Shown here: positions 483 through 53,004 of the stretch, piece by piece
Numbering within the stretch: position 1 is the stretch's first letter
How the letters are laid out: every line of letters begins with the position of its first letter
DNA from: Tetradesmus obliquus
Lineage: Eukaryota; Chlorophyta; Chlorophyceae; Sphaeropleales; Scenedesmaceae
Length of the DNA: 64,000 nt
Direction of reading: 5' to 3'
NCBI GenBank assembly: GCA_030272155.1
Contig: CP126203.1
Coordinates: 2,418,001 to 2,482,000 of the forward strand
Notes under the pieces: model-generated
The model's input: only the letters and a program-made list of their open reading frames with translations
Told to the model about the DNA's origin: nothing
Database searches by the model: none
Made by a program: the position numbers and the translations under genes

Positions 483-670
483 CCCAGCCCTGCAAACACC
501 CTCATCTTGTACGACATCTCCTCTCTCATCCAGCCCTGCTCTTACACTTTTGTGGTTTATGGCAGCCGGGCCCATTACTAACAGGGCGGTGTGCCGCCTG
601 CCATGCTGCAACACAGACCTGGCAAGACGCCTCATCTTGCATGACACCCCCTCGCCCCATCCAGCCCTGG
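483..670 (+). repeat. Two decayed upstream copies of the GST gene start
   Basis: Two blocks (about 483-545 and 607-670) resemble the first ~60 bases of the GST coding region at 730-795. Shared pieces include 'catcttgtacgacatctcct' against 'cgtcttctatgacatctcct', followed by 'catccagccc'. Spacing is about 123 bp. Neither copy keeps an equivalent of the ATG at 737, and both break off after the block. They are partial 5' copies lying upstream of the intact gene, the same pattern as in the larger genes of this window. Confidence 0.7.
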
Positions 671-736
671 ATCAAAATTGTGTCAAACTGACGGCAGCCG
701 AACTTGTTGTTACACTGGCTTTGCTGCAATGCAGAC

Positions 737-1555
737 ATGTCAAGCCCCCTCGTCTTCTATGACATCTCCTCGCCCATCCAGCCCCGCTCCTATGCGCCCA
801 ACCCCTCCAAGTCCCGCCTCGCCCTCAGCTTCAAACAGCTGCCTTTCAAAACCACCTGGGTTGACATCCCGGACATACCTGAAGTCCGCAAGGGGCTTGA
901 TTGCGCAGCTGTCCGCAAGCACCATGATGGCTCCGAATACTTCACACTGCCGATGCTACAAGACCCAGCCTCCGGCAGAGTCATCGGCGACTCATTCGAC
1001 ATTGCAGTATATCTGGAAGATACGTTTCCGCAGTCCGGCGGCTGCTTGTTCCCGCCAGATTCCACCCGCACAGGGCTCGATTACGAGAGCCCGCACAAGG
1101 ACTCGTCATTCCTGGTGCCGCTGTCGCCGCAGCAAGGCGGCAAGCATGCGGATTATGCGCGGTTCAACTGGCACGTGGATGCAAGCTTCACTGCCTATGT
1201 AGGCCTTGTGGGTGAGTTCCTGCCCTTCAACCCTCAGTCAGCAGACAGAGTGCGGCAGATCTTCCTGCAGCGGGGCTGGAGCGGGGTCTCCCTCTCTGCC
1301 GAGCACCGGCAGCAGCTGCTGGCAGGGTGCAAAGCAGGCCTGCAGTCGCTCGCAGAGTGCTTCATGGTGAACAGCAGCGGGCCGTATCTAGAGGGCAGCA
1401 GCGCAAGCTATGCTGACTTCATTGTCGGCGGCTGGCTCAACATGTTTTCTGAGACGATGCCGGCAGAGGAGTGGCGGGAGTTCCGGAGCTGGTATGGCGG
1501 CGCGTTTGCGCGGCTGCATGACGCATTGCAGCAGAGCTACTACGAATGCAAGTAG
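737..1555 (+). CDS. Glutathione S-transferase-like protein (Ure2/LigE-like), single exon
   Basis: An uninterrupted frame of 272 codons plus stop. The ATG at 737 begins MSSPLVFYDISS, the expected first beta strand of a thioredoxin-fold GST N-terminal domain. An earlier non-ATG extension adds nothing family-like. The segment around residues 65-110 (LPMLQDP, then DSFDIAVYLEDTFP) matches the cis-Pro loop and the glutathione-contacting Asp/Ser helix of the Ure2-like and beta-etherase-like GST classes. The C-terminal ~150 residues are helical-looking, including GPYLEGSSASYADFIVGGWL, which resembles the GST_C segment with the buried Asp. Likely cytosolic; substrate unknown. A possible donor at 1209 (gtgagttcc) is read through because the frame and domain continue across it. 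Partial 5' copies of the gene start lie upstream. Confidence 0.8.
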   Translation: MSSPLVFYDISSPIQPRSYAPNPSKSRLALSFKQLPFKTTWVDIPDIPEVRKGLDCAAVRKHHDGSEYFTLPMLQDPASGRVIGDSFDIAVYLEDTFPQSGGCLFPPDSTRTGLDYESPHKDSSFLVPLSPQQGGKHADYARFNWHVDASFTAYVGLVGEFLPFNPQSADRVRQIFLQRGWSGVSLSAEHRQQLLAGCKAGLQSLAECFMVNSSGPYLEGSSASYADFIVGGWLNMFSETMPAEEWREFRSWYGGAFARLHDALQQSYYECK

Positions 1556-2981
1556 AGGGTGGGCGAGAGAGGGTGACGTGCTTGCCGCAAGCGGCTTCTG
1601 CAGTTGCTGGCAGCTTCCCTGTCTTTTTGTTTGCGCTTTTGAGTGAGATGGTGTTCAAGCAAAGAAGTGCAGCTCAGATGCTGAATGCGCTACCGGTAGG
1701 CAGGGACTCCTGTTCTTTGTTTGTTGGCATGAAGAGTCCCCAAACCCATCGCCATTCACCAGAGACGTGCCGCTTTTGTAAAGGCAGAGTGTACTGCAGC
1801 TGTACAGCAGTAGCTTATGTGCAACTTAGATGTTTTGGACAGCGGCGCTGTGCAGCATTTTGATTGGTTGATGGTGCAGCGGAGATTTTGGGCCTCCCTC
1901 GTGGGTGCATTTTGGTTGGACATAGCATGCCAAGAGTGAGTGACTGGGGACAGCAGCAGCAGCTGTTGTGTCCTGTGATTGCACTGCTGCCAACTGTTGT
2001 GGTCTGGTTGAGGTCTGGGTGCAGCTGCCTTTGGGTGGTGGGGCCTCCTTTGCATGCTGCATGCCATGCGGTCCAGTGCTGCATCCTTCCAGTCAACAGG
2101 CATGCCAGTAGCTTCGATGCAGAGATGCCGCATCAGCTGCAACAAAGTGCAGTGCACTGTGACAGCCACACACCAAATGCAGTTGCATGGCGAGTATGCA
2201 GGTGCACGGTTGGCGCATCAGTGTGCATCACTGGTGTAAACTGCTGTGTCACAGTACACGTTGCTTGAGCTCCTTCACTGGATACGGTGGTAATTTGTTG
2301 CAGCTCGATGAACTTGCTTTTCATCAGCGGTTACGCTTGCCCCACGAGCATGTGGAGCTGTTCTTCGCAAGTTTGGAATGAGGGTTCAATGACCTTGACA
2401 GGGTCCCAGACTGGGCAGCCAAGATAGCAGCAGCATGGCATCGATCCGTGCAAACTATGATATTGGGAACCAATTTGTACTTCACAGCATGTCAAGCTTG
2501 CACGCTCAGTAATGTCGTGGAGTCATCCGAAGCAACTTCACTTTGCAGCATAGCAGCAGCTGCAGGAACGAGCAGCCCCTGTTTTGCCGGTACCTGAAGC
2601 TTCACTTGTCTCAGAGCATGGGCGTTTGGTATATCAGCAGCTGCAACAGCTGCAGTAGCCTCAATCAACAGCAGCAGTTGCAGCGCAAGACTTCTCAGTA
2701 GGCCTGCAAGCACAGGCCAGCAGCAGCGCCCATCATTCATCCAGCAGCAGCTGTCTCTTCTCTCTGTCAGGCACAATGAGCCCTGCAAGCAACGCTGGTG
2801 AGCAGCTGCATGCACGCGTGTGCCATTATATGCCGCTGGCCTACAACATCACTCAGACCATTCTGCTGCATAGACAGCAATCCCCACGAGCAACTTGATA
2901 CTGTGCCTGCAACCTGGCAATGACCTCAGCGTTTTTTCCTTGCTGCGATTGCGCCATGCTGCAAATTGCCTGTTGATGCAG
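1556..2981. other. Intergenic/5' region without a recognisable gene
   Basis: Short open frames on both strands have no family resemblance or consistent splice phasing. The stretch presumably holds the GST 3' UTR and the promoter or first exon(s) of the following kinase-like gene. That gene's first recognisable exon begins at a splice acceptor at 2981/2982, so at least one upstream exon with the start codon remains unidentified here. Confidence 0.5.
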
Positions 2982-3589
2982 AGCCAACCAGCACATATCA
3001 GACCATACGCTGCCTCGACAGCCTCGCCCCTGGGGCAGAGCTTGCCAGCAGCAGCAGTGATAGCAGCCAGAAGTACCTGCTGCTGAAGCTGCCACGGCAG
3101 CAGCTGCAGGACTTGCCGCAGCTCCAGCAGCTGGTGCAGCAGTCAGTAGCGCTGCGCCACCCAAACGTCCTGCAAGTGCATGAGCTGTACCTCACCTCAC
3201 AGCACCTAGTGGTGGTGCAAGAGGGCTGCTCTGATTGCAGCCTAGCGCAGTTCCTGCAGCAGCGGCGCCAGCAGGGCAGGCAGCTAAGTGAGGCAGCTGC
3301 ACGCTGCTTGTTCCAACAGGTGAGCCTCACAGCAGCTGCTGTTGTTGTGGGTCTAAGCAGTGAATGGGCAGCGGACCTTCCTATAGTAGTACAGCACACT
3401 GTGCAGCTGGTGTCCATGGCTTGCAGGAATGATCATCTTGCGAGCCGTGATGGCTTGCAACACACACACGGCTGCAAACCCTGCTGCTGTTTCCGCAGGT
3501 GGTGATAGCAATGGACTACTGCCACCGGCAAGGGCTGACTGGCTTGCCCATACAGCACATACTGCTGCAGGTGGGTAGGTCTGCTGCAG

Positions 3590-3628
<39 letters not shown>

Positions 3629-5564
3629 GCATTGAACACCACGCTATAATTGTCCCGGCACAGCAAATGCACACAACCCACGTGCCGGGACGTTCACACA
3701 AACTCTTTGCGTCACAGGCTTGGTGTGTATTTCAAACAGCACATTTATGCTGATCAGACATTTGGCTGCGGTGTTTTAATACATGCTGCAACCTGGTCTG
3801 TGGTTGCAGGACAACCCTGGGCGGCCTCCATTGCCCAAGTTGCCCTGCCCGCTGTTTGCCTTGGCGCTCAGCAGCAGCAGCAGCAGCTGCCATGGCAGCA
3901 CAGCACTGCAAGGGACATTGCACGACATGCAGGCATGCGGCGCGCTGCTGCTGCAGCTGCTCGGTGGTCAACTGGCACCAGCAGCACCAGCAGCAGCCGC
4001 TACAGGCAGCAGCAGCAGCAGCCAGGCTTTAATTCAGCTGCCAAAGGGCCGCTCTGCCGAATGCCAGGAGCTGGTGCAGCAGCTGCTGCTGCAGAGCCCT
4101 GGGCTCATGCTGTGCAGCACACACGGCATCATGAGCAGCAGCTGGTTCCAGCAGGGTCTGCTGCCGGACTTTGCTGCTCTGAACCAGCAGGTCAATGGCA
4201 ACACAGTGCAGCTCTGCAAGCAGACACGCGAGCAGCTGGACAGCATTGTGGCAGCAGTGCATGACTGGCCGCCGCAGTTTGCAGTGTACCAGCGGTTTGC
4301 TGATCTGGCAGCTGCCTTGTCAGGCCTGCAGGTGCAGCAGCAGCAGGTGGATACAGGGCTAGGCAGCAGCTGGGTGCAGGTATATGAGACAGAATGCACA
4401 CAGGAGCAGCTAATGCAGCAGCAGCTGCAGCAGCAGCAGTCAGTGCTGCCGGCGGCAGGCGCGCTCTGGGTCTACTGCTTGCCTGCCTTTTTTAAGAAGA
4501 GCTCAGATGATTCCTCCAGCTCAGGGCAAACCTTGGCTGCAGCGGAGCAGCCCGCCAGCTTGATCGGCGCAGTGCAATGGACTCAGCATCTTATCCTGCA
4601 GCTTTCCTGCAAGCTGGAAGGCTTTTCCTGCAAGCCGCCGGCACCAGAGCTGCTGTCTGCAATGAGGCAGCTGGCCACCGCAGCAGCAGGTGGAGCTTGC
4701 AGGAAGTTAGTGCCAGTCATCGGCTTGTGCCTGCAGCCGCCGCTGCTGCTGCAGGAAGCCCCTCCTTTGCTGCAGCTGCAGCAAGGGCCAGCACACTGCA
4801 CGCTGTCCGCATGGCTGCAGGAACAGCCGCGTTTCAACAGCGGCTGGATGGGGTATGACTGGATGTATGCAGCTGACATCCGCAGCAGCAGCAGCAGCAG
4901 CAGCAGCAAGACGGAGCTGTGGGCAGCAGAGGCTCCATGGGCATACATGCTGCAGCTGCTGTGTGATGTAGCAGCAGCGCTTGTGGATCTGCATTCGCTG
5001 CAGCCGCCGCTTACGCATGGCGCTGCGAATGCAGGTGCCGTGCACTTGCTGTCAGCACCGCCGTGCGCTACACATGCGCGGCAACTACAGAATGCGTCAA
5101 CAGCAGATAGTCTCATCCCTCAGCAGCAGCAGCAGGTTGCGCAGCTGAGTTGGGTAGGCCCCTGGAGGCATGCAGTCAGCAGCAGCCGGCAGCTCAGCCA
5201 CCCAGTGCTCACTGCACCCGAAGTGCTGATGCACGGCGCACCTTTCAGCGCAGCGACTGATGTGTATGGCTTTGGGATGATAATGCTGCAGCTAGCTGCC
5301 TGCTGGGCACCTGCTGAACATGAGCTCGGTAGTACGGATAGTTTCCGTGACATAGACAGCAGCTTGCGGGTGCTGCAGCAGCACGGCACGCTGCTGGCGG
5401 CTGTTGAGTCCCAGCAGGTGTTTGATGGCTGGCGGCAGCAGCTGCCTGCAGGGTACTGGCAGCTTGCCAGGAGCTGCTGCAGCGGCCACGCTGCTGACAG
5501 GCCGAGTGCGGAGGAGGCGCTGCGGCGCTGCAGCGCACTTGCTGAAGCGCTGCGCCCGGCATGA
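2982..5564 (+). CDS. Double pseudokinase-like protein (SnRK-like lobe plus second kinase-like lobe), 5' incomplete
   Basis: Exons 2982-3319, 3499-3570 and 3810-5564 (stop) join in one frame with GT-AG introns. The upstream start exon was not found. The first part reads like an SnRK/AMPK-type kinase: ALRHPNVLQVHELYLTSQHL (alpha-C/beta-4), then MDYCHRQGL. The catalytic-loop Asp is gone (TGLPIQHILLQ where plant kinases have an RDIKLEN-type loop), and after DNPGRP the DFG motif is missing. After a long Gln/Ser-rich linker, a second kinase-like C-lobe appears near 4.9-5.5 kb: LTAPEVLMHG (APE region), SAATDVYGFGMIMLQL (helix F) and RPSAEEALRR (subdomain XI). It also lacks HRD and DFG. Probably catalytically dead, a scaffold or a decaying gene. 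The terminal exon is followed by tandem copies of its own 3' end. Confidence 0.6.
3591..3637 (+). repeat. (CTG)n run in intron of the kinase-like gene
   Basis: About 15 CTG triplets in the second intron (3571-3809), in sense orientation CTG. Such runs recur in introns of this window, often near 3' splice sites. Confidence 0.9.
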
Positions 5565-12126: not shown

Positions 12127-12947
12127 GAAGTGTAATGCAACAACTGTGCAGTCAGACATGCAGCTGAGTAGCTCGCATCACCAGGTACACACAGCATGCA
12201 GCACTAACCACGCGGTGCAGCGCACACACCAAGTTGAGTGATGATATGTGAGTATGTATCCAATCATCTCAGGTGTAACCGTGGTGTAACCCCCACCTGG
12301 CAGTGGCGGGCGCACCGCCTCCTTGCTGCTGCTCATCATGTGCAGCAGCGCGTGGTAGTTGAGGCCATCGTAGGGCTCACGCAGCGCCCACAGCTCGTAC
12401 AGCACGATGCCAAAGCTCCACACATCCACAGCCTGCAATGATTTCAGGGAGGGATGCAAAACGTTTCAACCCTTGAACCTGACATAATCTTCGCTAAGGA
12501 TTTTAAGAGGCGAGACAAATGACAGATGTCTGCGGTGCAGTTTTGGTTCAAGCAGCAGCCCAGAGACGACAGCTCGTACAGCACGATGCCAAAGCTCCAC
12601 ACATCCACAGCCTGCAATGATTTCAAGGAGCAATGCAAATCCTGGGACCCTTGCACCTGACACGAATTCCGTGTGAGGTCGTAAGAGGCAGAGCAACACA
12701 GATGTCTGCGGTGCAGTTGGTGGTTCAAGCAGCAGAGCAGCGCCCACAGCTCGTACAGCACGATGCCAAAGCTGCGCACGTCCACAGCCTGCCATGTGTT
12801 GTCCAGGAGGCTCGCATTCACAGCTGATGACGTGCGCAGCGCACCTGTGTGACTGAGGCTGGCGTGTGGATGATCTCAGGGGCAATCCACGGCAGCGTCC
12901 CACGCAGCGTGGCCACACCTGCTCAGTGCAGTGCAGCGTACGGCGGC

Positions 12948-13017: not shown

Positions 13018-14635
13018 AGGCGTCGTCAGCGCACACTACATATCAGCACAGCAAAGAAGAGCCTGCTGCTTCTGCTGGCCTCGACCCTACAACAAAGGTC
13101 TACTGCTTGCTGCTGCTGCTTCCGATTGCTGCCCACCTGTGACGAAGGTCTGCTGCTTCTGCTTGCTGAGGCCCATGTCGGCCACCTTGCACACGGGCGT
13201 CTTGTCACGCATGCCCACCAGCAGGTTTGCACTCTGTGAAAACGGCGGCAGCAGCAGCAGCAGCAGCAGCACCAGCAGCATGTTAGCTGCATGCCAAGTA
13301 TGCACAGATTGCAACCCAGCCATGCTCCCATGCGCAATTCTGCACAACCACGACATATGCATGTGTTTGGCAACGGCCGATTGCCTGACTGCTGCTTCCT
13401 TGACTGCAAGCCGTGCTGAAAGGCGCACCACGCCAGCCTACAGAACCGCCACCATGCTTACAGGCACGACTCCGCGTGAGCACAGGCTCTTCAATCATCT
13501 CAATCTTAATACAGCTTATTCGGGCCGCACCTTGAGGTCGAAGTGCACGATGTGCTTGGAGTGCAGGTAGTCCATGCCCTGAGGAGGGACAGCAGAGAGA
13601 GAAAGAGAGGCAGACGGAGGGCAGAGGCAGCACAAGAACACTTGAGCAGCGTGGCAACACCAAGGCTTCATCGTCGTACGATACGTGATAACGGCCTGAC
13701 GCTCACACTGACAGTGCTCAGTACTCAGGATAGCAGATGATAACGCATGCCCTGACACCCACTCACTATACCATTGTACTCGTTACTAGTCCTCACCCGT
13801 GCAGCATCCAGCGCCAGCTTTATCCTCACGCTGTCCCTGCTCAGGAAGTCGGCGCGCCGCGTGATGGCTGCACGCAGGCTGCCACTGGCTAAGTACTCCG
13901 TGACCAGCGCAGGCGGCCTGATCTGAGAGACTGCCACCTCCGCGCGGTGCCTGCAGGTATGAATACAATTTGTGTAGAGTGTCAGATGCAATGCAGCAAA
14001 GCAGGCTGCCGCTGGCCAGGTACTCCGTTACTAAGGCTGGGGGCCTGATCTGGCTCACTGCTACCTCCGTGCGAAGCCTGCAGAACCGATTGCATAGGTC
14101 ACAAGGCAGCAGGCATCGCATGTTATGAACGGTGCCTGCTGTTTAGATACTCCGTGACCATCGCATGGGAGGAGTATGAAAGACTGCCACCTCAGCAGTG
14201 CCCGCAGGCATGTGTGACAACATGTCACACAAGGCAACAGGCAGAATATGTTCTAAAAGCTGCCGCTGGCCAGGTAACCTGTCACCATACTCCTTTATGA
14301 TGGCTGAAAAAGGCCGCACCTGTTGGCCATGCTGGTGGCCACCTTCACTGCATCCAGCCCTTGGCCCCGCCCCAGGTGGCTGCGCACCGCCTCCATACCT
14401 AACAACAGCAGTGACATGCACCCCAAAGCCAAGCAAATGATACTGGAAAATGCAATGCAGGGCCTGCCGCACCTGTTGGCCATGCTTGTTGCCACCTTGA
14501 CTGCATCCAGGCCCTGCCCCGGCCCCAGGTGGCTGCGCACCGCCTCTAGTGCGGCATCAAGCGGAGGCAGCACCAGCCCATACACCCTGCAGACACAGCA
14601 GCAGCAGCAGCAGCAGGCGACTGTTGGATGAGCGA

Positions 14636-14669: not shown

Positions 14670-17600
14670 GCCGCAGCAGCAGGGGCAGAAGCAGTGGCAG
14701 CAGCAGCAGCATGTGTGTGTTGTGCTCCGCATGCTCACTGTTTCTGCGTACGCAACCCAGGGCAAGGAGAGCTCGATACTGCACCATAACCAGCATAGAG
14801 TGGACAGTGTACATGCTGTCCACTGCATTGCGGCAGACGGCACTGGTTTGTAAGACACTTGTTTCAACCGTCCGGGTCCCAGTGCAAAAAGCAGCAGCTG
14901 CTGACCCTCACCAGACCACGTTGGGGTGCCGCACGTTGCCCAGGATGGACGCCTCCTTGAGCAGCTCACCCACGTTGTCCTGCAAGCACAATAACAGCAT
15001 GTTCCTGGCGAAAGATGCCAACAACACATACGTTATCATGATGCTATAACAACGCCTGCATTCAAGCAGGCATACCAGTCGTAAGGTCTCAGCAGGGGTG
15101 GTGAGCAAATGCTCCTATTGAGATTTGATCACCAAATACAGTGAACAACAGGATGACAGAATCGGCAGCAAGATTAGAACTTATTGCTGGCCTCACCTTG
15201 CTGATGCTGCCCATGCCGCCATAAGGCACCAGCAGGTTGGGGTTGAGGCACTTGACCGCCACGTCACACGAGTGCCAGCGGCAACAAACAAGGCATCCAC
15301 GCCACAACAGATGTGCCAAAGGCAAAAGGCCAATCAAAGCAGAACTAGCCAGCCTGCGTTGTGGTGGCCATGTAGGTTAACAACTTGCAGGTTTGCAGTT
15401 CAGATACAGGAACGGTACGAGATACAGGTTGTTCCCACCTTGCTGATGCTGCCCATGCCTCCATCAGGCACCAGTAGATTCGGGTTGAGGCACTTGACCG
15501 CCACGTCACACGAGTGCCAGCGGCACAGGTACACCTCACCAAAGCCGCCAGTGCCCAGCAACCGTACCGGCTGCAGTACAAGACAGCAAAGCAGTACAGC
15601 AGTACAACATGGCAGTAGTACAGCAGTACAAGGTTAGGCACGGCAGTACAGCGGCACAGGTACACCTCGCCAAAGCCGCCAGTGCCCAGCAGCCGCACCG
15701 GCTGCAGCACAGAATAGAAGCAGTACAGCAGTACAAGGTTAGCCACGGCAGTACAGCGGCACAGGTGCACCTCGCCAGAGCCGCCAGTGCCCAGCAGCCG
15801 CACCGGCTGCAGTACAGAATAGAAGCAGTACAGGGCGGCAAAGCAGTACAAGTTAGGCACAGGTACACCTCGCCAAAGCTGCCACTGCCCAGCAGACGCA
15901 CCGGCTGGCACAAAATAGAAGCAGTACAGAAGTACAGCAGTACAATATGGCAGCAGTACAGCAGCAGAAGGTAAGGCGCAGCAGTACATCGGCACAGGTA
16001 CACCTCACCAAAGTCCCTAGTACCCAGCCGCCGCACCTGCTGCAGTACATCAATGCAGCAGTGCAATGCGGCACAGCAGTACAGTAACAGAGTCTTGGCT
16101 GCGCTTGTCTGAAGCATTTAGCTGATGGTGCCCAGCGGGTGCTCAGGCTGGAACAGTACAACTGCAATTCAAGCCGGGTTTCTTAAAACATAGTCACATA
16201 CATAGTCATGCATACACTGCTGGACGGGAGACCTGCTGCAACACTGGCGTCTTGCGGCAGACAACCAACAAAACAAGTGATGGTTTGCCTTGATCTCCGA
16301 GTCAAACTTCAGTCAGACGTCAGTCAAGCTCTGGTCAAACTTACTGTCAGGTCCTCAGGGCTGATGATCTCCAGCTTAGCCTCCAGATCTGCCAGCTTGA
16401 GCTGTGTACTGCCCTCAGATGAGTTTGTCACCACATCAGAAACCAAGTCGTCATACTCGCTGCTTGTGAGCTGCACATTGCTGTTGCTGCTGCCAGGAGC
16501 CGTGCTTGTGCTGCTGTTGCCGAAAGCAGCTGCTGCTGCCGCCGCCGCCGCTGTTGTTTCAGAGGGAGGGTCTGCAGGCGCTGCTGCCTGCGGGTTGCTG
16601 CTGCTAAGCGCTGCCTCGGAACTGCCAGGCTCCTGCAAGCAAGCAGAAAACGGGGGGGCAGCACTGTGAGTTCAACTACGAAAACTTATGCGAGACCCAC
16701 TGGGTGGGCAGTGCCCGTGATCCATGCACTGCGGTGCAGCAGCAAAGCCCTCTGCAAAGGCAAGCGCCGCGCCAGACAGACGAGCAGCTCCCACTGCACA
16801 ACGGGCCTCCTCTGTTTGCATGGCCTCCTCTGTTTGCATGGCCTCCTCTGTTTGCAGGGCCTCCTCTGTTTGCATGGCCTCCGCTGTGCTGCTGCCACAT
16901 TCAACAGCTCTACGTGCGGAAGTCAGCTGCTGAGTAGTCACACATACCTTTGTGTACCACGCACTGATACAGCTCTCAAACCACCTGCACCACACAAAAA
17001 CATCCTCTTCCTCACCTTGAACACATGGCTGTCGCCACTTGGGCAGGTGCTGCCGCTGCCACCTCAGAACAACGAACGCACAAAGCAGCTAAAACCTATC
17101 CCACACAGGCGCGCAGCCATTTTGACTCTAAACCCCGTCCCACCTTGATCACGTGGCTGTCGCCACTGGGGCAGGTGCTGCTGCTGCCACCGGTGCTGCC
17201 GCGCTTGCTGCCCAGCTGCGCATACAGGTGCAGCCTGAACCCCGGCCGCAGGCTCTGCAAGGACACGGCACAAAACAGGGTTTATGATGTTGATCATGAT
17301 GATGTTGCTGCCCAGCTGTGCATACAGGTGCAGCCTGAACCCCAGCCACATACTCTGCAAGGACACGGCACAGCACAGGTGGAGCGTTGTGCGTTTATGA
17401 CGTTGATCATGATGATGTCGCTGCCCAGCTGTGCATACAGGTGCAGCCTAAACCCCGGCCGCAGGCTCTGCAAGGGTGAAAAGGGCAGGCAGGTTGGTGA
17501 GCAGGCAGACCAGCATAAGTACTGTCTTATCAAGCTGGATCACAGAGCACTGGACTGCTCATGAAGGTGACGGATGACGCACTGCGTGCCATGCGGAAAA

Positions 17601-18619
17601 CACATTGTGTGCCATGCAGGCTTCACTAGCCACAGGACAAGAGAAACCACATGAGATTTGTTGAAGAAAGCGCCTCACCGCATACGAGTCAAACTCCCCC
17701 CACATCATGTCCAGGTCCTCGTCATCAATCAGGTCCACCAGCACAGATGAACTGCACCACCATCACAACCACACACTGTCTTTCACACACATGTTACAAC
17801 GGTGTTATAACAGTGCTTGTAACAAGTGCCTCACCGCGTACGAATCGAACTCCTCCCACATCATGTCCAGGTCCTCATCGTCAATCAAGTCCACCAGCAC
17901 TCCGCTGTCGCCATCAGGGCCCGGCAGGTCATACGTGATGCGGCAGCTCTGCAGCAACAGAACAGCAGCAGCAGCGGCGGTGGCAAGAGTGATGGCAGTG
18001 ACGGGGTGCAGATGTCAACCGCAGCGTTAGTACCGCGGCGACGGCTTGAGCAGCCGCAGCGGTGCCATATGCAAAGACAGTATCAAACAGTAATTGAGGA
18101 GGTACATAATATATGACACACATCGGACAATGCCGCACCTGAACTTACACTGCAGGGCTTGCCGTGCTCAGCTGCTGCAGCGCGCAAAAGTAGCTGGCTG
18201 TACATGAAGAAAACCGATCAACGAACCAAACAAACACACAAGCAGCGCCTCACCTCGTCCCAGACTGCGCTGGTGGCCTTGGCCAGCTGCTGCAGGAAGG
18301 CTGAGAAGCTTTGGGTGCGGCTCAGCCCCACAAGCCGCGTCTCGCCGCCCACGTAGCGCCAGCGCATGCTGCGGCCGCCGCCGCCGCCCGTGGTGCTGTT
18401 GCTGCCCTCGCTGGTCATTGGGAGCTCTTCATACTCGCCGCCTGAACTAAGCAGCACGCGCACCTAGGGAACCAAAGCAGCAGGAAAGAACAGCAGCAGA
18501 AACAGCTCAGGGCTGGGAAGGACTGGGGGTGGTGCCTTCGCTGGTCATTGGGAGCTCTTCATACTCGCCGCCTGAACTCAGCAGCACGCGCACCTGCGGC
18601 AGCAGCAGCAGGTGAGGCG

Positions 18620-30609: not shown

Positions 30610-33600
30610 TGCAGCTGAGCTTATGGGGCTGTGTTTCATTGGCACTTCAGCTGTCAGCTGCAGTCAGTAGAATTTGGCAGCGGTTGCATTGCGCTTCGCT
30701 TACGCGCCTGGGGTGCAGCAGTGCTTTTCACAACACGTTTTTTGGCAACAGAGCACTCATTGGCTGCGTGTATGTCTGCTGCTTCTGCTGAACCTGCTGC
30801 CGCCGCACAGGGCTGATCTTTGTGGCGTACTGCGTGGTGTGCTACCTGGTGACCGCGCTGCTCTTCAGCCTGCTCATCCTTGACCTTGCGGCGCTTGTTA
30901 TAACAGTAGCACCCAGCAAGGCCATCTTCAAGTACACAGACCTGGTCTACACAGGTACGACGGGAAATTAATGCATCATTTGTCAAGTGAACTTCTTGGA
31001 TTGAACCTGCCTTGCAAGTATGTTGTGTTGCCTGCTGCCTCGGCTTGCTGCTGTTAGCATGCCCTGTTCTTGCTCCGTTCTCAGAGAACCTCGGGATCAG
31101 CCGGGTGGTGCCACCCTGCTGATCGATTTCTGCTGCCGCAGCTTGCTGAGATTGCGCTATTTCTTCTTACTATACACAGAGAACTTCAAGTTCAGCCGGC
31201 TGGTGCTGCAGGCCTGGCTGCAGCCCGCTAGTCACTTCCTGCAAACCAACTGCCTGCTGTCGCCACCTGCTGCCTTTTCACGCTGCTTTCTGCAGAGAAC
31301 TTCAAGTTCAGCCGGCTGGTGCTGCAGGCCTGCCTGCAGCCCGCTAGTCACTCGCTGTCAACTAACTGCCTGCTGCCGCCGCCTGCTGTTGCCACACTGT
31401 ATTGTTGCAGAGAACTTCAAGTTCGGCCGGCTGGTGCTGCATGCCTGGCTGCAGCCCGCTAGTCACTTGCTGTCAGCCAACCGCCTGCTGCCGCCGCCTG
31501 CTGTTGCCACACTGTATTGTTGCAGAGAACTTCAAATTCAGCCGGCTGGTGCTGCAGGCCTGGCTGCAGTCAGCGCCCGAGCTGGTGGTGATAGCCGTCA
31601 TCCTGTACAGGAATGTGGGCAGTGGCGGGCCAGCTGTGGTCATCAACGGCACCATCCTGCTGCACGTAAGCATTGACTTTAGTGCTATGAAGGGTTGTGT
31701 TGTGTGAGCAGCTGTGATGGCAATACGGTGTTATGGGTGGTAGGTGTCATCCTGTACAGGAATGTGGGCAGTGGAGGGCCAGCAGTGGTGATTGATGAGG
31801 AGAAACCTTCTGCACTTGTGGATTGTTGCGTTATGGGGTGGTTAGGGGGATGTTTGCCACATCTTCACCTCCAGGTGCTTGCCAGTTGTGCCCAGGCAGT
31901 GCCCGGTGCAGCAATGCTCACTCGTTGTCAGCATCCTCCCAACAGCTGTTCTCGCATGTTTTGAGTACATGCTGCCCTGCAGGCGCCGGCAGCACACCTT
32001 ATCTATGCACCAGCCACCGCCAAAATGACATCAGCAACTGTGTTTGGTCTCGCATGCTGCCCTGCAGGCGCTGGCAGCGCACCTGGTCAACCTGTGGGAC
32101 AAGGCCCCACAATCTTTTCAGCATCTGTTTCATGCAGTATGTGCTGGAAGAGCTTGCACCGCACCTCATCTCATCATCACTTGTTGCTGTTTTTCCCGCT
32201 CTGTCCTGCAGGCGCTGGCAGCGCACCTGGTCAACCTGTGGGACAAGTGCCTGCTCTTCCGCTCCGCAGCAGCAGCCATGCAACCTGATCAACAACCCTT
32301 GCTGCATGCTTGCTCGCATGTTGACCCACAGGCGCTGGCAGCACGCTCCTCTGCGACAACATGTCTGCTCTTTCACTCTGCAGGAGCTGCCCTGCAGATG
32401 TCTTGGCAGCTGTATCAACATGGTTGTGTCCGCATGCTGCTCTGCAGGCGCTGGCAGCGCACCTGGTCAACCTGTGGGACAAGTGCCTGCTCTTCCGCTC
32501 CGCAGCAGCAGCAGCTGGCGCCGGCCCCGGCCACCATCTGCTGTGCATGCTGCAAGTGAAGGGCTCCTGCAGGCTCAGCTTGCCGGTGCTGCGGGACAAC
32601 CTGAGCAGGGTGCTGCGGGGTGCCGGCGGCGGGGCTGCAGGGGCGGGGCTGGGCAGTGTGGTGCACATCAGCAGCGCGGAGGATGCACCCGACAACGATA
32701 GTGAGCTGGTGAGCTGTTTGACTATCATTCAAAACCAGCAGGGTGAATGCGCCTAGGAAGTGCGGAGGCAGCTGGCAGCAGCTGTGCTTGGTATATGTAG
32801 AGTGATGAGGGGCAACCTGAGCAGGGTGCTGCGGGGTGCTGGTGGCGGCGCTGGAGGGGCGGGGCTGGGCAGTGTGGTGCACATCAGCAGCGCGGAGGAT
32901 GCACCCGACAACGATAGTGAGCTGGTGAGCTGTTTGACTATCATTCAAAACCAGCAGGGTGAATGCGCCTAGGAAGTGCGGAGGCAGCTGGCAGCAGCTG
33001 TGCTTGGTATATGTAGAGTGATGAGGGGCAACCTGAGCAGGGTGCTGCGGGGTGCTGGTGGCGGCGCTGCAGGGGCGGGGCTGGGCAGTGTGGTGCACAT
33101 CAGCAGCGCGGAGGATGCACCCGACAACGATAGTGAGCTGGTGAGCTGTTTGACTATCATTCAAAACCAGCAGGGTGAATGCGCCTAGGAAGTGCGGAGG
33201 CAGCTGGCAGCAGCTGTGCTTGGTATATGTAGAGTGATGAGGGGCAACCTGAGCAGGGTGCTGCGGGGTGCTGGTGGCGGCGCTGGAGGGGCGGGGCTGG
33301 GCAGTGTGGTGCACATCAGCAGCGCGGAGGATGCACCCGACAACGATAGTGAGCTGGTGAGCAGCCAACTGATGGCCAATATGGTGGCGTAGAATCCAGT
33401 GGAGCAGCTAAGTGCAGGGTGCAACCAGTGGATCAGCTGATTGTAGGGTGTTGATGTTGATGGTAGGGACGTAGCTTGTGGCGGTGTGGTGCACATGAGC
33501 TGTGACGTAGGACGCACCCGACAACGACAGCGAACTGGTGAGCAACTGGTGGATTGGTAGATTGCAGGCTTTGTCAAGCCTCCATAACCTTAAAACAGGT

Positions 33601-36600
33601 TGTGATTCATGACCACCGTGATTCTTGCCTCCTGCGGGCTGCCTGCAGGCTGCCAGAGTATCTTGCGCCCACCAATGGGGAGCTGCTGTCTGTGTTGCGC
33701 ATCTTCTTACCACAACAACTGCTTCTCACCAGTGCACTGTGTGTATATTTCTTGCAGGCCGCGAGCATGGTGCCTGAGTACCTCACGCCAACAAATGGCG
33801 GGCTGCTGTCGCCGGGGCAGCTGGTGGCGCTGGCGCGTGGCGTGCTGCAGCGCTATGGCGGGCCTGGCGTGGCCGAGCTGGTGCTTGAAATCACACCAGA
33901 CGTGATGGTGGGCAAGGTGAGGCGGCCGGCTATTGTTTCTGCCTGTTACTCCGCACTTGGCTTTGGTTGCTGCAGCGATATGGCGGGCCAGGGGTGGCTG
34001 AGCTAGTACTCAAAATAACGCTTGACGTGATGGTGGGCAAGGTGAGGCAGCTGTGTGTTTACCTTTGGAATGCTGAAACTGTCGTGAAGAGAACGCAGTT
34101 TCAGAGACGTTCTGCACGAGGTGGGAAGGTTCGGTGCACTGCAGGCAGTGAAGCTGCTCTCGCTGTGTTCACTTTTCCTACGCTGTTGTTTGGTCTGTCT
34201 GTCCCCTTGTAGTGTACTCTGACAAGTATGCTGCCACGTGCCTGTGCTGCCTGCCGCCCCTGCAGCTGCTGTCCCAAGTCATGGACAGCATACCCGACAC
34301 CTCATCAGTGCGGCTGGTCAACACTCTGCTCCGGGCCGCTTGCTTCATTTTGCTTTGCTGTTGCTTATGCTCTATGGTGCCTTCTGGGAATTGCTTGGCT
34401 TGTCTCGTGATGCATGCTGACCGCATCGTTTTGTTACGTGCTGCCTGCCGCCCCTGCAGCTGCTCTCCCAGGTCATGGGCAGCATACCCAACACTTCATC
34501 AGTGCGGCTGGTCAACGCATCAGTGCGGGGCGCAGATGCAGCCAGGCTCACTGCTGCGCTGCTGCAGTGCGGCAGCCTGCGCACACTGCAGTTGCATCAG
34601 GTGGGCTGCTGCCGACAGACTAACTGATGCCTGCTTGGTGTCAACTGTTCCTGCAGCTGTGCCTGGTGCTTGTGTTGAGTCGTGCTGTCGATCCTTGTTT
34701 GCTTTCTTGCTGGGGCAGCAGCTTGTGCATCTGCTGTTTAAGCTGCGGATTCAAGCTGTGACAGCAACCACACCCACCATCACACAGCACACCCTTACCA
34801 CCTCCACATCGGCGCCTGGCCGACACTTCGGGAGATGGATAGCGCGCCACACTCCGCATCTGCTCGTATGTCAACCCTGATTGCTGTTGCTGCTGCTGAC
34901 ATGCCTCTCTGCTGCTGCAGCTCATCATAGACGAGCGGGGTGCAGTGGCACTGATGCAGCTGCTTGACCACACGCCAACACTGCAGCAGCTGGACCTGTG
35001 CAGGTGAGCTGCGTTGACCAGCGGTCAAAGTAACGTGAACATTGACCAGCGGTCAAACATGTGTACAGCACACTCGCATGCAGCTGCTGGACCTCACGCT
35101 GACACTGCAACAGCTGGACCTGTGCAGGTGAGCCCCTCGACCAGCAATAATCGCATGGCATGCCAGCCTGGACATGAACACAAGCAAAGACTACAGCTGC
35201 ACAACAAGCACAGTTGATCCGCCACCTGTACACACAAGATTGATGATTACGCATGTCAGGCAGTCTTGAATCATCATGAATCCGCATGTCCCTCACGTGT
35301 AAACAGGTGCAAGCTGCGCCGCCGCGCACCCCAAGCCCTAGCTCAGGGCCTGCGGCTAAACCGCACGCTGCGCCAGCTAAACCTCGCCGGCTGCCAGGGC
35401 TTAGATGACGCCGGCGGCGCTGCGCTGACATCAGCGCTGGCGTGCAGCAAGGTGCTGTGCGGCATCAACCTGGCTTTTGTGAAGCTGGGGCCAGCAGCAG
35501 TGGACAGCCTGGTGCAGGTGCGGGGCTCTGCCTTTTCTAGTGTCTTTGTGGCTTTCTGTTGTTTGCTGCATTTCAATAGACGAGTTTTAGCATCACCTGC
35601 CCTGTTGCCAACCCCAGCAGCAGTGGACAGCCTGGTGCAGGTGCGGGCTTGGGCACAGGTAAAGCAGCAGCAGTGGCAGAGGCAGCGGCTTGGACTTGTT
35701 TATTATAAAGCTGGGGCCAGCAACAGTGGACAGCCTGGTGCAGGTGCGGGATGGATGCCAGTACAGCCTGCTATAGAACAGCTGAACCTCTGTGCAGCCC
35801 TTCTCCTACAGGGCTACCAGCATCACGCGCTACCTTGCCACCCACACTTTGTGCTGATGCACTGAGTTGCACCGAATGTAGATGTCCAGGCTGCTGTCTG
35901 GCTGTCTTTTCCGTGTGCTGCAGGCCCTCAACAGCAGCAGCAGCCTGCGTGTATTAGCAGTCTCCCAGGAGCACCTGCCAGTGGAAGGTTGCCGCAAGCT
36001 GCTGGCTGCAATCACTGCACTATGTATTCATTCTCTTACCGCTGTCCTTCACCACGTGCTTCCTGCAGGCCATCAAAAGCAGCAGCAGCCTGCGTGTCTT
36101 AGCAGTCTCCCAAGAGCACTTGCCATTGGAAGGTTGCCGCAAGCTGCTGGCTGCAATCTCTGCGCTGCAAAACCCTAAAGCCCCACCCAGCCTCTCGTGC
36201 AACCTCACACTGGGCACTTTCCCAGTAGAGGGGCTGGACAGGGTTCAGTGGCTGGCGGTTCAGGACCAGGAAGCGCTGATCATGGACGCCTGGCAGGGTT
36301 TAGCGGCAGGCATTGAGGGTTTAGAGGGGGAGCTGAACCCTCAGCCAGGGGGTTTAGGGTTTGGGGCAGGTGTTGATGCGGCTGGTGTGGCTGGGGCACT
36401 GCAGCTGCCGGGGGATGGTGGCAGTACATCAGAAAGGGGAGCAGGCCAAGCAGCAGATGAGACAGCTCCTTTGCTGGGTGCAGCAGCAGCAGGCAGCAGC
36501 AGCAGCAGGCGACCTCCGTCGCTGTTTGTGCCCCATGCACCGCCGACAGCCTTTGATGTAGCAAGCCCGCTGCCTGCAGCAGCAGCAGCAGGCACCGGCA

Positions 36601-37471
36601 GCAGCAACATGTCAGCAGCGTGGTTTGGCGTCGGCGGCAGCAGCAGCAGCAGCAGCGGCCTCGGAAGCACAGCTAGCAGCAGCCCCTGCAGCGGCGCTGG
36701 CACCAGTGCAGCAGCAGCAGCAGCAGGCTGCAGCAGCACTGCTGACCTGGCATGTCCGATGCTGGTGTTTGTGGTTACACAGGAAGATGTCGTGAACTGC
36801 ATGGTGAAGTCACCGCTGCTGTTCCCTGAACTGGACACCCTGGATCTCACCGGCTTGGGTATAGGGGACGAGGGCGCAGCAGGCATGGCTAGGGTTTTGG
36901 AGCAAAACCCTGCGGTGCGGCGCGTGGTTCTGACAGACAACAAGATAGGCGAGGAGGGCGGGGCATCGCTGGGCGCTGCGCTGACGCTCAACGACACTCT
37001 GCAGGTGAGCCGCCCTGACCAGCTGTGCTGTGTGGTTGACAAAGAGATTGTATTTTGCATGTAAGCGTGCAAGCGAATGCATGTAAGCGTGCCATGCTCG
37101 TGGAGGAGTAAGCAGCTGTGCTACCGCATGCGTTGTGAGGGCTACTGCAGCCAGATATTCGGCCAGGCAGTTGCTCGTGCATCGGCAGTGTTGATGCGCC
37201 TGTGCTCTAACCAGCATTACCGCATGTGTGCTGGGTGTTCATTGCTGCTGTTGACTTCCAAAGTGCTGGTGCTGCTCAGTCCTGCCTTTTGCTCCGTCCA
37301 TGCTGAACATGATGCATCAATCAACACTCGTCGCCGCTGCTGCTGCTGCTGCTACGGCTGCTGCTTCTGCTGTTACTGCCACAGGTGCTCGATCTGAGTG
37401 CCAATGAGCTGTCAGAGACAGGCGTGTGTGTCTCGGCAGAAGCCACAAAACGCGCATCAAGCTTGCTGAAC

Positions 37472-37503
<32 letters not shown>

Positions 37504-37592
37504 AGGTGCTCGACCTGAGTGCCAACGAGCTGTCAGAGACAGGCCTGTGTGTCTCGGCAGAAGCCACAAAACGCGCATCAAGCTTGCTGAAC

Positions 37593-37627
<35 letters not shown>

Positions 37628-38469
37628 AGGTGCTCGACCTGAGTGCCAACGAGCTGTCAGAGACCGGCGTGTGTGTGCTGGCAGAGGCCACAAAGCGTGC
37701 CGCGGGCCTGCGTCAGCTGCGTCTGCTGGGCAACAAGATTCCCTTTGGGCTGAGCACGCTGCGCAAGCTGATGGAGGTGCGGGATGTTGTTTTCTTTCTA
37801 GAACTGCGCTTCTAGAACTGTGTTTCTGATGTATGCTTGTTGCAGTTTTGGTGTGAGGGGATCCTGTGTGTATGGGCGCTGCTGATGCGCACCACTGCCA
37901 TGGGCGGCAGCAGGTGCTGCTGCGATGTGCTGTGCTACGTATCGGTGATGTACTGATGTCTGTGTGTCAGCGCCGGGCCTGCGTCAGCTGCGACTGCTGG
38001 GCAACAAGATTCCCTTTGGGCTGAGCACGCTGCGCAAGCTGATGGAGGTGCGGCGTGTGTGTCCAGCTGACCGGCTTTTGCTCGTTTGTAATTATGTATG
38101 TGCTCCTCTGTGCTCTCCTGCCGTGTCTTTCATATCTTCTTCTTCTATAATCTTTTGTGTGTGTTGCAGGCTGAGACAGCATCCCCGCACTGCCACCTGG
38201 TCCTCGTTGAGGAGCCACAGGAGGTGCTTGATGAGCTCAACAAAGCAGGCGAGACCATCCACGCGCTGCGAGCAGCAGAGTTCTTCAAGCGCCAGGAGCA
38301 GTACAGGGCAGCATGCCGGCAGCGGCTGGCAGCGCGGCAGCAGCGGCTGCTGCGGCTAGAAGAGCAGGCGGCAACAGCAAGAGCTGCAGAGGCTGCAGCA
38401 GCAGAAGCGGCAGGGGAAGATAGTGCTGGTGACGGCAGCAGCAGCCAGGAGCCAGACATCGAGGCTCCT

Positions 38470-38501
<32 letters not shown>

Positions 38502-48479: not shown

Positions 48480-49961
48480 CCTGGCCAGCGCAGATGGGCT
48501 CATGGAGCTCAAACAGTCAGATATGGCTTCTTTCAGACAAGGTAGAGCGCGATAGGTCCGTTGGCTTCGTGCTGGGTCGACTACTGCTGGATGATGAAGC
48601 AAGCTCACAGCAGCAGCAGGCTCCTGTGGTGGTGAGCCTCATGCCTGCTGCTGACCCTGCTATTAATTCTTCTGGAATTCACGCTTATGTCGGCAACAAA
48701 TGCTTGAATAACAGAAAAAGTAGCGGGCCATGACTTGCGCAGTTGCTGGGGCACACCTTGGCCAATGCTGGCTGACATGACCACTGTGTTGCACTTGCAG
48801 GAAGCTCGCATCTATCCCGCTGCTAACACAGCGTGCTGCACACATGGCAGCACAGCCGGCATCTTCACACCGCTGCCATCAGACAAGCTGTTCTTTGATG
48901 ACATATCAGAATATTGGCACGTCTGCTGGCCTAAGCATGGAGGGCTAACCCAGCTCCCCAGCAACAGCAGCAGCGGCAGACTGTTGGGGTGCAGCAGGTT
49001 TTCGAGCAGCAGGGCCAGCCAGGAGCAGCAGCGCAGCAGCAGAGTGTTCACGGTTTGCCTCATACCTCACACGCACCCATGGCTGGCGCAGCAAAGCATA
49101 CACTGGGTGAGTTGTTTTTGCCAGTAGCTGAGGCAGGTGCAGGCAGCGAAACCGCTCATCCGGTTGTCCTGTGTGGTAGCGCACGTGTCGCTGCCATTGT
49201 TACAAGTGTGATGTACTTTGAGTTTGTAGCAGAGGGAGGGAGCAACAGCATCTGCAGCATAAGCTGCTGCGCATGTTGTGTTCACGCTCTGAGCTTGCAG
49301 GGTTCCCGTCTCCCAGCAACTGCTCTGCACCACCTGCTGCGTGCATTTGCAGTTGCCATATGGCTTGCCATATGCTCATGCCTTCTGTTCCGAACAGAAC
49401 AATTTGTTCAGCCTGTCTCCCTGTACTTGTCGTTGAATCAGACCTCTCAAGCCAAACAAACGCTGCTGCCCACGCGTGTCCATTTCAACTCCTCTTGCAG
49501 GACAACCCTCAAGTTGAGCAGTACTGTCAGCAGCTGGGCATGTCAACGTTAATCGAGTCAGTTGCTGCTCACGGCCTTACCGGACTGCCAGAAACACTCA
49601 AGTCAGAGGAGCAAGACAGCAAGCCGTGGTTTGGGTTCTGCACTGCAACAGACCACCTACACATTCGGTACTTGCTGACCTGATCTGCCTGCCGCAGTAC
49701 CAGCGCAACAGGCAGCTGTATGCATGTGCACATTACGAGGCTGCTGCAGCCTGCAGCCGCAAGCAGTGCAGTGATTGCTGCACACGCATGGGGGCACGGC
49801 AGCCGTGTGAGTACCACGCACAGCGCAGCAGTGTTGCTGGTGGGTTGTTCCAACGGTACCATGAAGTGAGGCTGGTGCAGCAAGAGCAGCAACGGGCAGC
49901 AGCAGAGGCTGCTGTTAGTGCGAAACAGGCCAAAAACATGGCACGGCAGCACCTGCAGGTG

Positions 49962-50003
<42 letters not shown>

Positions 50004-50681: not shown

Positions 50682-50690
50682 CAGCAATCG

Positions 50691-50730
<40 letters not shown>

Positions 50731-50835
50731 CATAGCTCAGCAGATGCAGCAGCAGCCGTGCTCAACGTAAACTTGCAATATCAACACCCACTGCTGCCGC
50801 TGCTGCTGCTGCTGCTGCTGCTGTTGCTGCTGCAG
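50682..50835 (+). other. Junction between the two 14-kb units
   Basis: CAG-run (50,694-50,730), short unique stretch, CTG-run (50,796-50,834), then directly the acceptor of LRR-RING exon 14. The triplet runs sit exactly at the join of the Gln-rich gene and the duplicated LRR-RING 3' end. A frame stays open across it (other phase), so a fusion product cannot be excluded. Confidence 0.6.
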
Positions 50836-52392
50836 GTGCTCGACCTGAGTGCCAACGAGCTGTCAGAGACCGGCGTGTGTGTGCTGGCAGAGGCCACAAA
50901 ACGTGCGGCGGGCCTGCGGCAGCTGCGGCTGCTGGGAAACAAGATTCCTTTTGGGCTGAGCACGCTGCTCAAGCTGATGGAGGTGCGGCGTGCTCGTTTT
51001 GTAGAACCTTGTTGTTGAACTGTGTGTTTGCTTGATTTGTTTTTTGGGTGAGGCGTGCGGTGGGTGGGTGCTGCTGATGCGTACTACTGCTATGGGCAGC
51101 AGCAGGTGCTGCTGCGATTAAGATAAGTTTTGGGCTGCAGAGATGCGGCATGTGTGTCCAGCTGCCCGGCTTGCTCGTTTGAGCTCCATTTGTGTCCCTC
51201 TGTCTCCTCCAGCCGTGTGGCTAGTATGTGCTTACTTTTTCATGTTGGGGTCTGCACCGCAGGCTGAGGCAGCATCCCCGCACTGCCACCTGGTGCTTGT
51301 GGAGGAGCCACAGGAGGTGCTTGACCACCTAAAAACATATGTCTGCCTTCTGCCGATGGTACATGCTTGCTGCAAGCCGGGGCAGCGACACCACACTGCC
51401 ACAAGCACAATGACAAACATCGCACGTCACATGTTCTGACATGTGTGTCGGTTTTGCTGCGCCGCAGGCTGAGGCAGCGTCGCCGCACTGCCACCTGGTG
51501 CTTGTAGAGGAGCCACAGGAGGTCCCCTCGGACCCAAGACACCCGCATGTCTTCTGACATGTGTCGGTTCTGCTGAATTCGCTGCATTGCAGGCTGAGGC
51601 AGCATCCCCACACTGCCACCTGGTCCTTGTGGGGAGGAGCCACAGGAGGTGCTTGATGAGCTCACTGCCTGCCTTCTGCCATTTGTCGTTGCTGTGCCGC
51701 ACGCCGCCGCCGCAGCAGCAGCCTCATCGCGCCGCCACTTGGTGCTTGTTGACTTGAGGTGCCTTGCAAAGCGTCTGTGGCTCGTTGCCTTCTGCCATCT
51801 GTCCATGTTCTGCCGTGTGTCGTTTGCTGTGTTGTGCAGGCTGAGGCAGCGTCGCCGCACTGCCACCTGGTGCTTGTGGAGGAGCCACAGGAGGTCTTCT
51901 TAAACTCAAGACGCCTGCCTGTCTTCTGACATGTGTCGGGTTTGCTGCATTCGCTGCGTTGCAGGCTGAGGCAGCGTCGCCGCACTGCCACCTGGTTATT
52001 GTGGAGGGTCCACAGGATGTCTCCTTGAACTCAAGATGTCTGCCTGTCTTCTGACATGTGTCGGTTTTGCTGCAATCGCTGCATCGCAGGCTGAGGCAGC
52101 GTCCCCGCACTGCCACCTGGTGCTTGTGGAGGAGCCACAGGAGGTGCTTGATGAGCTGAACAAAGCAGGCGAAACCATCCATGCACTGCGAGCAGCAGAA
52201 TTCTTCAAGCGCCAGGAGCAGTACAGGGCAGCACGCCGGCAGCGGCTCGCAGCGCGGCAGCAGCGGCTGCTGCGGCTCAAGGAGCAGGCGGCAGCAGCAA
52301 GAGCTGCAGAGGTTGCAGCAGCAGCAGAAGCGGCAAGGGAAGATAGTGCTGGTGGCAGCAGCAGCAGCCAGGAGCCAGACATCGAGGCTCCT

Positions 52393-52426
<34 letters not shown>

Positions 52427-52782
52427 TGGACCCTAGCAACAGCGATGCCAGAAGCACAGCTGCATCAGCTGCATCAGCCGCCTCTGCAGCTGCAGACACC
52501 ACTGTCGCTGCCGGCAGCAGCAGCAGCGCAGAGATCCCTGTGCCAGCTAGCCCTCTAGGCAGTGGTAGCGTGCGCAGTGCATCATCTCTCACTGCCGATG
52601 AGGACACATGTGGCATCTGCTTCGACAACTGCAATCATGTGGCCATCAAGTACTGCGGGCACCGGCTGTGCGTGGATTGCTACAGGAAGGTGTGGGAGCT
52701 GAGCGGGACGGGGTCCTCCTGCCCCTTCTGCAGGGCGAGGCCGGAGGGCTATCTGTACCTGGACTGGCCCCTGGAGCCCTGA
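50836..52782 (+). CDS. Truncated LRR-RING paralogue (last two exons), 5' incomplete
   Basis: Exons 50836-50982 (VLDLSANELSETGVCVLAEA to LKLME) and 52090-52782 join in phase 0 to 280 codons with a stop. The C-terminal C3HC4 RING is complete and nearly identical to the full gene's (CGICFDNC, YCGHRLCVDCY, CPFCRARPEG). The Ala linker is shorter. All upstream exons (membrane helices, most LRRs) are missing and the segment abuts a different gene, so it is a 3' fragment produced by the 14-kb duplication. It could be expressed only with a new promoter or as a fusion. Confidence 0.7.
51263..52075 (+). repeat. Five to six upstream partial copies of the RING-bearing last exon
   Basis: Starts at 51263, 51469, 51593, about 51713 (decayed), 51840 and 51965, each at a cag acceptor. 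Each encodes AEAASPHCHLVLVEEPQEV or a close variant and then breaks off. The intact exon starts at 52090. Typical spacing is about 124-125 bp. The full gene (38170) has no such array, so it arose after the 14-kb duplication. Confidence 0.93.
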
Positions 52783-52897
52783 GCAGCAGCTGTCGCTGTT
52801 TTCAAGAACTGCGACAAGCAGCGTCAGCAGTGGCTACCTGCTGCAGCTGGCGTCACGCAACAGTGTTGCTGGCTGCAGCTGTTTCCAGCACGTCGGT

Positions 52898-53004
52898 GGT
52901 GCTACAGGAAGGTGTGGGAGTTGAGTGGGACTGGCTCCTCCTGCCCCTTCTGCAGGGCGAGGCTTGAGGGGTACCTGTACCTGGACTGGCCCCTGGAGCC
53001 CTGA
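52898..53004 (+). repeat. Downstream partial copy of the RING exon 3' end
   Basis: Encodes CYRKVWELSGTGSSCPFCRA and on to the same terminal codons and stop as the intact exon ending 52782. Only the last ~105 bp are copied. Confidence 0.93.

Follow-up and report, generated by a model that had tools for sequence, protein, structure and literature searches.

Predicted exons of the alga Tetradesmus obliquus are repeatedly accompanied by partial copies of themselves, which lie in direct orientation on the outer side of the exon edge that they repeat and carry their own splice site, where scored mostly of a strength close to that of the intact site. We describe these half-exon copies in a window of 64,000 nt (forward strand positions 2,418,001-2,482,000 of contig CP126203.1, GC content 56.7%) and in further blocks of the same genome, where the pattern is real and is not local to the window. 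The reading that we prefer, with a probability of about 0.6, is that tandem duplications across exon edges have been tolerated through exon-definition splicing, and that constraint together with gene conversion has preserved the likeness of the exon half in the copies.

The source genome comprises 104.66 Mb in 17 contigs. The following sequences, 304 kb in total from four contigs, have been scanned: the window (W), two blocks of 100 kb each (C1 and C7) and one block of 40 kb (C4); four short loci beyond the 304 kb were also taken in. Exons are predictions of a small gene finder self-trained on these sequences, the C4 block being held out of training. It gave 263 exons with a median of 153 bp and introns with a median of 343.5 bp, and the splice sites learned were approximately CAG/GTGAG for donors and TGCAG/G for acceptors (the slash marks the junction). 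An upstream copy of the 5' part of an exon or a downstream copy of its 3' part is called canonical, and the reverse is called contrary. The first search of exons against their surroundings used 244 exons, after those below 30 bp had been dropped, and control regions 31 kb away (237 exons); the final copy count used 285 exons with a minimum of 40 bp, and low-complexity matches were removed. Divergence, structure and site scores were analysed for copies from 264 kb (window, C1 and C7), with the C4 block left out. Loci at W 32400-33300 were kept in the spacings and omitted from the stop and nonsynonymous counts, the intron-half homology test, the per-position tables and the site scores, and copies below 0.74 identity were omitted from the codon-position, stop and nonsynonymous analyses. 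From 48 single copies, 44 entered the intron-half homology test and 35 the inspection of junctions.

When the window was compared with itself by BLAST and CAG-rich matches were removed, 87 direct and 2 inverted repeat pairs were found within 3.5 kb. Near-direct repeats (up to 1 kb apart) cover 20% of the window, 12% of the C1 block and 19% of the C7 block, and near-inverted pairs number 1, 3 and 5, respectively, so that the repeat excess is not local to the window. Exons matched their own surroundings 350 times in sense and 78 times in antisense orientation, against 75 and 98 times in the control regions. The final count of 324 matches consists of 183 canonical, 20 contrary, 32 whole-exon and 89 internal ones, whereas shifted controls for the same 285 exons gave 41 matches, that is, 40 internal ones, one upstream copy of a 3' part and no canonical copy. 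Canonical copies were found at 44 of 244 acceptor edges and 51 of 235 donor edges over the 304 kb, and in 64 of 257 predicted introns, about a quarter of the sample.

In the window alone, 64 predicted exons have 31 upstream 5'-part copies and 30 downstream 3'-part copies, located at 11 of 52 acceptor edges and 14 of 53 donor edges. The high density of partial exon copies claimed in an earlier reading of the window (hereafter the original prediction) is thus borne out. Its claim of a strict polarity stands as a dominant sidedness, because predicted exons aligned to their own flanks over the 304 kb have copies that respect the exon side (the 183 canonical against 20 contrary matches given above), but the rule is not strict: 12 matches in the window are contrary, 17 are internal, and 16 cover a whole exon, where the original prediction had seen no whole-exon duplicate. 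The contrary matches of the window stem from an array at 5424-7097, a 216-bp array at 32586-33362, predicted exon 15666-15806, which sits inside a copy array, and predicted exon 51263-51316, which is itself a copy. Most exceptions to polarity are tandem arrays such as these two or predicted exons resembling copies, and many of the 32 whole-exon matches, which were not classified individually, are short predicted exons that are copies or lie within the period-216 and period-523 arrays. The held-out C4 block gave 12 canonical and 3 contrary matches, all 3 from one array near C4:38516-38997. A Pfam check of the whole genome, done without the gene finder for kinesin (150 of 161 matches), ClpP and CCT, gave, among the matches listed, 31 partial copies beside a longer match; 29 are canonical (13 upstream copies of an N-terminal part and 16 downstream copies of a C-terminal part, although about 3 of the 29 pairs may be ordinary neighbouring exons overlapping in the profile), 2 are nearly whole-length upstream copies, and none is contrary. 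One kinesin exon on contig C2 has six half-copies upstream, 126-141 bp apart.

The sidedness is forced by tandem duplication, because only the copy joined to the remaining exon continues into it; the upstream copy is consequently a 5' part and the downstream copy a 3' part. The original prediction correctly stated that simple tandem duplications with one breakpoint in an exon and the other in an intron yield this geometry. It overstated the polarity as a signature hinting at a dedicated mechanism; since any tandem duplication across a splice site gives the same sidedness, polarity is no evidence of a special mechanism. Whole-exon copies are expected to be few because the spacing (median 135 bp) is usually shorter than the exon (median 153 bp). 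Successive spacings below 90 bp are 2 of 149, and the edge-copy spacings are free of the reading frame (49, 51 and 49 by remainder modulo three), as expected if the copies are spliced out. Arrays found by Tandem Repeats Finder (TRF; period of at least 40) with exon at both borders have periods of 42, 42, 57, 69 and 216, all divisible by three. Periods below 90 occur in 0 of 22 edge arrays against 9 of 20 other TRF arrays (P = 0.0004, the arrays having been grouped after the list was seen).

The copies retain strong splice sites. GT or AG is kept in 130 of 139 scored copies, and copied donors that keep GT score like intact ones (mean 6.60 against 6.60, P = 0.75; background GT -1.4), while copied acceptors that keep AG are slightly weaker (5.46 against 6.62, P = 0.02; background AG 0.12). 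Splicing would need to ignore the half-exons, as the original prediction held. The median length of introns is 540.5 with copies and 281 without, and when the distance to the outermost copy is subtracted from the copy-bearing introns, the median becomes 304.5 and does not differ from that of copy-free introns (P = 0.94). Since copy-bearing introns are longer by just this stretch, the copied material was added. The stretch between the real site and the outermost copy accounts for 11.7% of intron bases.

From this genome anatomy we infer the following course of events. Old and recent tandem duplications of about 100-250 bp would straddle the exon/intron edge, and splicing by exon definition would pair the sites nearest across the exon and ignore similar outer sites. 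A twin site within about 90 bp of the real one would compete with it and be lost through selection. The free intron half would diverge, while constraint on the intact copy and short gene conversion would reset the exon half, and unequal exchange between exon halves would expand the unit into T(ST)n arrays. Survivorship would then be the main source of the preference for exon edges. Cross-exon proximity under exon definition is described in the available part of PMC9225289, where the rule is clear for donors; the present case appears alike in that the nearest pair across the exon would win over similar outer sites, as judged here from the anatomy of the genome.

A role of gene conversion is suggested by two genes, located at 37-39 kb and at 51-53 kb, which are paralogues according to the window self-BLAST. 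The copy at 37974-38047 matches its own exon at 73/74 positions, and an apparent shortened and decayed counterpart is present at the same place in the paralogue. This comparison suggests that the copy probably arose before the gene was duplicated, and that gene conversion or a second round of copying later restored its likeness to the exon. The outermost upstream copy at 51263 adjoins sequence homologous to the intron of the first gene, and the newer acceptors of the second gene therefore arose on the exon side. As a separate observation, 37594-49980 and 50800-64000 are the two copies of a tandem segmental duplication, offset by 13-14 kb. Its identity of about 81% (40582-46716 against 54362-60588) jumps to 98.6% (46568-49980 against 60586-64000), which suggests recent conversion or a younger copy, and a 146-bp tandem duplication (60440-60734, 98.7% identical) is found at the border of this jump, in the second segmental copy only.

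Homology of the copies reaches about 20-150 nt into the exon, where single copies are about 88% identical, and usually fades on the intron side within about 10 bases of the splice site; some copies have 20 or more intron bases in common with the exon's own flank. Whole-unit homology including the intron half is common among inner copies of multi-copy arrays, and in many such arrays the outermost copy is without the spacer common to the inner ones. Of the 44 single copies tested, 10 retain weak residual intron-half homology at p <= 0.05, with about 2 expected.

Several results weigh against the tandem-duplication reading. In the other 34 of the 44 single copies no homology of the intron half was detected, and as the exon half has diverged by about 7.7% (codon positions 1 and 2), an intron half of this age should align easily. 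Arrays prefer exon edges about threefold over expectation: among full-length arrays of at least 80% identity, 17 of 31 are bordered by exon on one side and intron on the other (5.9 expected), and 21 of 42 TRF arrays are at exon edges (7.3 expected; P = 5e-6 against 7.9), with nulls that permit arrays inside exons, whose exclusion lifts the expectation slightly. Because of the missing intron halves and this edge preference beyond random, simple duplication accounts for the geometry but is incomplete as an explanation of the copies. For acceptors, the available part of PMC9225289 says that exon definition weakens the preference for the upstream site, a reversal not being stated there, and here the upstream site is the copy. 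The same part places the switch between intron and exon definition at about 250 nt, and 25 of 125 copies are less than 250 nt from the opposite splice site, 4 of them less than 100 nt. Copy-specific changes include 181 nonsynonymous ones against 207 expected (0 of 5000 shuffles as low) and 2 stops against 8.4 expected (P = 0.008), and this signal counts against the reading because neutral copies do not predict fewer such changes. Age differences among copies can mimic part of the constraint, since an exon change passed to younger copies appears as a change of the old copy. In addition, the support for gene conversion comes from one paralogue pair, and the copy rate is lower in the C4 block, where 4 of the 39 acceptor edges and 3 of the 38 donor edges carry a copy.

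The absence of intron homology in most single copies, the outermost array copies without spacer and the edge enrichment would all be explained if nothing but the exon half and the splice-site consensus were copied, to a place about 60-200 bp away, so that the copy ends at the junction from birth. Such copying would suggest a mutational mechanism tied to splicing or transcription. It is favoured also by the per-position identities of donor copies: in the 23 that are single or outermost and at least 0.9 identical to the exon, identity is 0.87-1.00 across the final six bases of the exon, 0.52-0.61 at +6 to +9 of the intron (against 0.25-0.35 in the control) and 0.26-0.52 at +12 to +24 (against 0.23-0.31). 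We nevertheless consider this process, the principal alternative, rather doubtful, because of the weak intron homology in 10 single copies and the copies with at least 20 intron bases, because no junction motif was seen by eye in the 35 single copies inspected, and because the paralogue comparison suggests a greater age for at least one copy than its identity would lead one to expect. A further reading, which seems unlikely, is that a splicing- or transcription-linked process has in this lineage repeatedly placed a copy of the exon end and its site consensus on the adjacent intron side, and that conversion between the twins exposes the decoy to coding-like constraint, through the risk that a defective decoy replaces the sequence of the exon proper.

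Single copies differ from their exons by 7.5, 7.9 and 20.6% at codon positions 1, 2 and 3, and in-frame stops in the copies are 5 against 27.8 expected with all changes taken as random, some of these changes belonging to the constrained exon. This third-position bias, the two deficits of stops and the well-scoring GT or AG of most copies might indicate that the copies are kept by selection as alternative or regulatory splice sites. We regard such a function as improbable: the spacing ignores the reading frame, 63 of 148 aligned copies have a frameshifting gap (some being alignment artefacts), the copies are found in unrelated housekeeping families, and part of the codon bias would be expected anyway, given that the intact exon is constrained and that the copies differ in age. 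Duplicated and mutually exclusive exons are a known case in which copies of exon sequence are placed in introns; unlike these, the copies described here are mostly half-exons without one of the splice sites.

Tandem duplication is also a documented route of intron gain, as the accessible parts of PMC3443670 and PMC2891723 describe, and the introns themselves could have been gained by duplication of exon sequence (the AGGT model) or from introner-like mobile elements. A gapped local test gave similar donor and acceptor flanks in 27 of 214 introns against 0 in the control (score of at least 26). The two of these 27 cases that were examined (C7:46926 and W:15571) are half-exon copies called as exons, however, and ungapped flanks at the intron-length shift are close to the control (2.3% against 1.8% at 0.4, 0.9% against 0.6% at 0.45, and 1 of 214 above 0.5), so that we hold this origin to be very improbable. 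The likeness to the intron gain described in those parts is that a splice-competent duplicate is removed by splicing and the mRNA is unchanged; the difference is that existing introns are lengthened here. An introner or transposon origin of the spacers was rejected, because 82 spacers compared with the 304 kb have no family in common; some spacers have short distant matches, and one of 519 nt matches 340 bp elsewhere at 70%. CAG/CTG tracts were likewise rejected as a trigger, with no enrichment beside copy edges (acceptors 6/44 against 47/200, donors 4/51 against 26/184). Tandem arrays are hard to assemble, but an assembly artefact is hardly credible, since most copies carry their own substitutions, since they are spread over several chromosome-size contigs, and since the observed polarity is not what faulty assembly would yield.

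With regard to the duplications themselves, short tandem duplications arise in break repair, by CST/Pol alpha fill-in at staggered breaks (available part of PMC8355091). The present units resemble these in being short, direct and head-to-tail and in having no sequence family, but differ from what is described there in favouring exon edges, in having edge spacings rarely below 90 bp, and in that the intron half is usually unrecognisable. In the accessible portion of the open-licence literature on partial exon copies, including that on algae, we found no description of half-exon twins at this density. As far as these partly available sources go, break-repair duplication, intron gain and exon-definition proximity are already known, and the density of apparently tolerated strong twin sites is the notable part.

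The copy loci of the window are listed in Table 1.

Table 1. Half-exon copies and related arrays in the window (positions of the window).
Locus	Positions	Strand	Copies
GST gene	493..792	+	Two degenerate upstream copies of gene start (493-544, ~620-667); intact copy starts 737-741; gene model 737-1552
Kinase exon 12297-12432	12297..12788	-	Two upstream copies of first ~52 nt with acceptor (12561-12611, 12737-12788)
Predicted exon 13797-13950	13797..14073	-	Upstream 5'-part copy (~14001-14073)
Predicted exon 14473-14586	14320..14586	-	Downstream 3'-part copy with donor (14320-14393); 7 mismatches, with 6 synonymous codons and 1 nonsynonymous
Predicted exon 15439-15570	15197..16037	-	Four upstream 5'-part copies (nearest 15649-15701); one downstream 3'-part copy (15197-15283)
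Predicted exon 17144-17254	17016..17475	-	Two upstream 5'-part copies; one downstream 3'-part copy (17016-17047)
Predicted exon 17835-17948	17679..17948	-	Downstream 3'-part copy with donor (17679-17744)
Predicted exon 31526-31665	31177..31815	+	Three upstream 5'-part copies, 115-116 bp spacing; downstream 3'-part copy (31736-31815)
Predicted exon 32448-32708	32068..33544	+	Upstream 5'-part copies; 216-bp x 3.6 array 32586-33362 (216 = 3 x 72) breaks the polarity rule
Predicted exon 33767-33916	33767..34041	+	Downstream 3'-part copy with donor (33968-34041); 12 mismatches, 10 at third positions
Predicted exon 34460-34600	34266..34600	+	Upstream 5'-part copy (34266-34339), 22 nt of intron end in common
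Predicted exon 35307-35517	35307..35743	+	Two downstream 3'-part copies (35614-35640, 35685-35743)
Predicted exon 37630-37776 (LRR-RING gene of the original prediction)	37357..38047	+	Two upstream 5'-part copies; one downstream 3'-part copy (37974-38047, 73/74 identical)
RING-bearing predicted exon 52090-52779	51263..53001	+	Five upstream 5'-part copies (51263, 51468, 51593, 51840, 51965); downstream 3'-part copy (52900-53001)

The gene identities proposed in the original prediction fared unequally. That of the GST gene is supported, but its copies repeat the start of a single-exon model and no acceptor is shown there. The kinase-like gene has a Pfam kinase exon (profile 183-226), whose upstream copy corresponds to profile 183-202. 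In the LRR-RING gene and its paralogue, RING was found by Pfam in the second paralogue only and the LRR match is weak, below the Pfam cut-offs; the PB1 match on which a PB1-RAF gene would depend is also weak and below them. A diverged paralogue as the source of copies was rejected for the one stretch tested, 17570-17948, which matched nothing but itself in the genome.

Other repeats were also recorded. A complex array at 5424-7134, with a period of about 253/523, stands at the end of a long reading frame, directly after a protein-kinase match (PF00069) below the cut-off, and does not follow the polarity rule. A 57-bp repeat at 10083-10295 (3.7 copies at 98%) is within a predicted exon, and a palindrome-like inverted repeat of about 120 bp at 40094-40213 is one of the window's two near-inverted pairs. 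In the C7 block, a nearly identical 114-bp tandem array is present twice (76921-77254 and 98576-98882), in predicted introns about 21 kb apart, and resembles a small dispersed element.

The annotation of this genome may include half-exons among its exons. If splicing passes over the copies, the genome provides a natural experiment, in which 95 exon edges in 304 kb have an outer twin site, mostly of similar strength where scored, and exon definition would be directly testable in an alga. The copies would then also suggest a tolerated minimum spacing of twin sites of about 90-100 bp, and they would represent one route by which introns lengthen.

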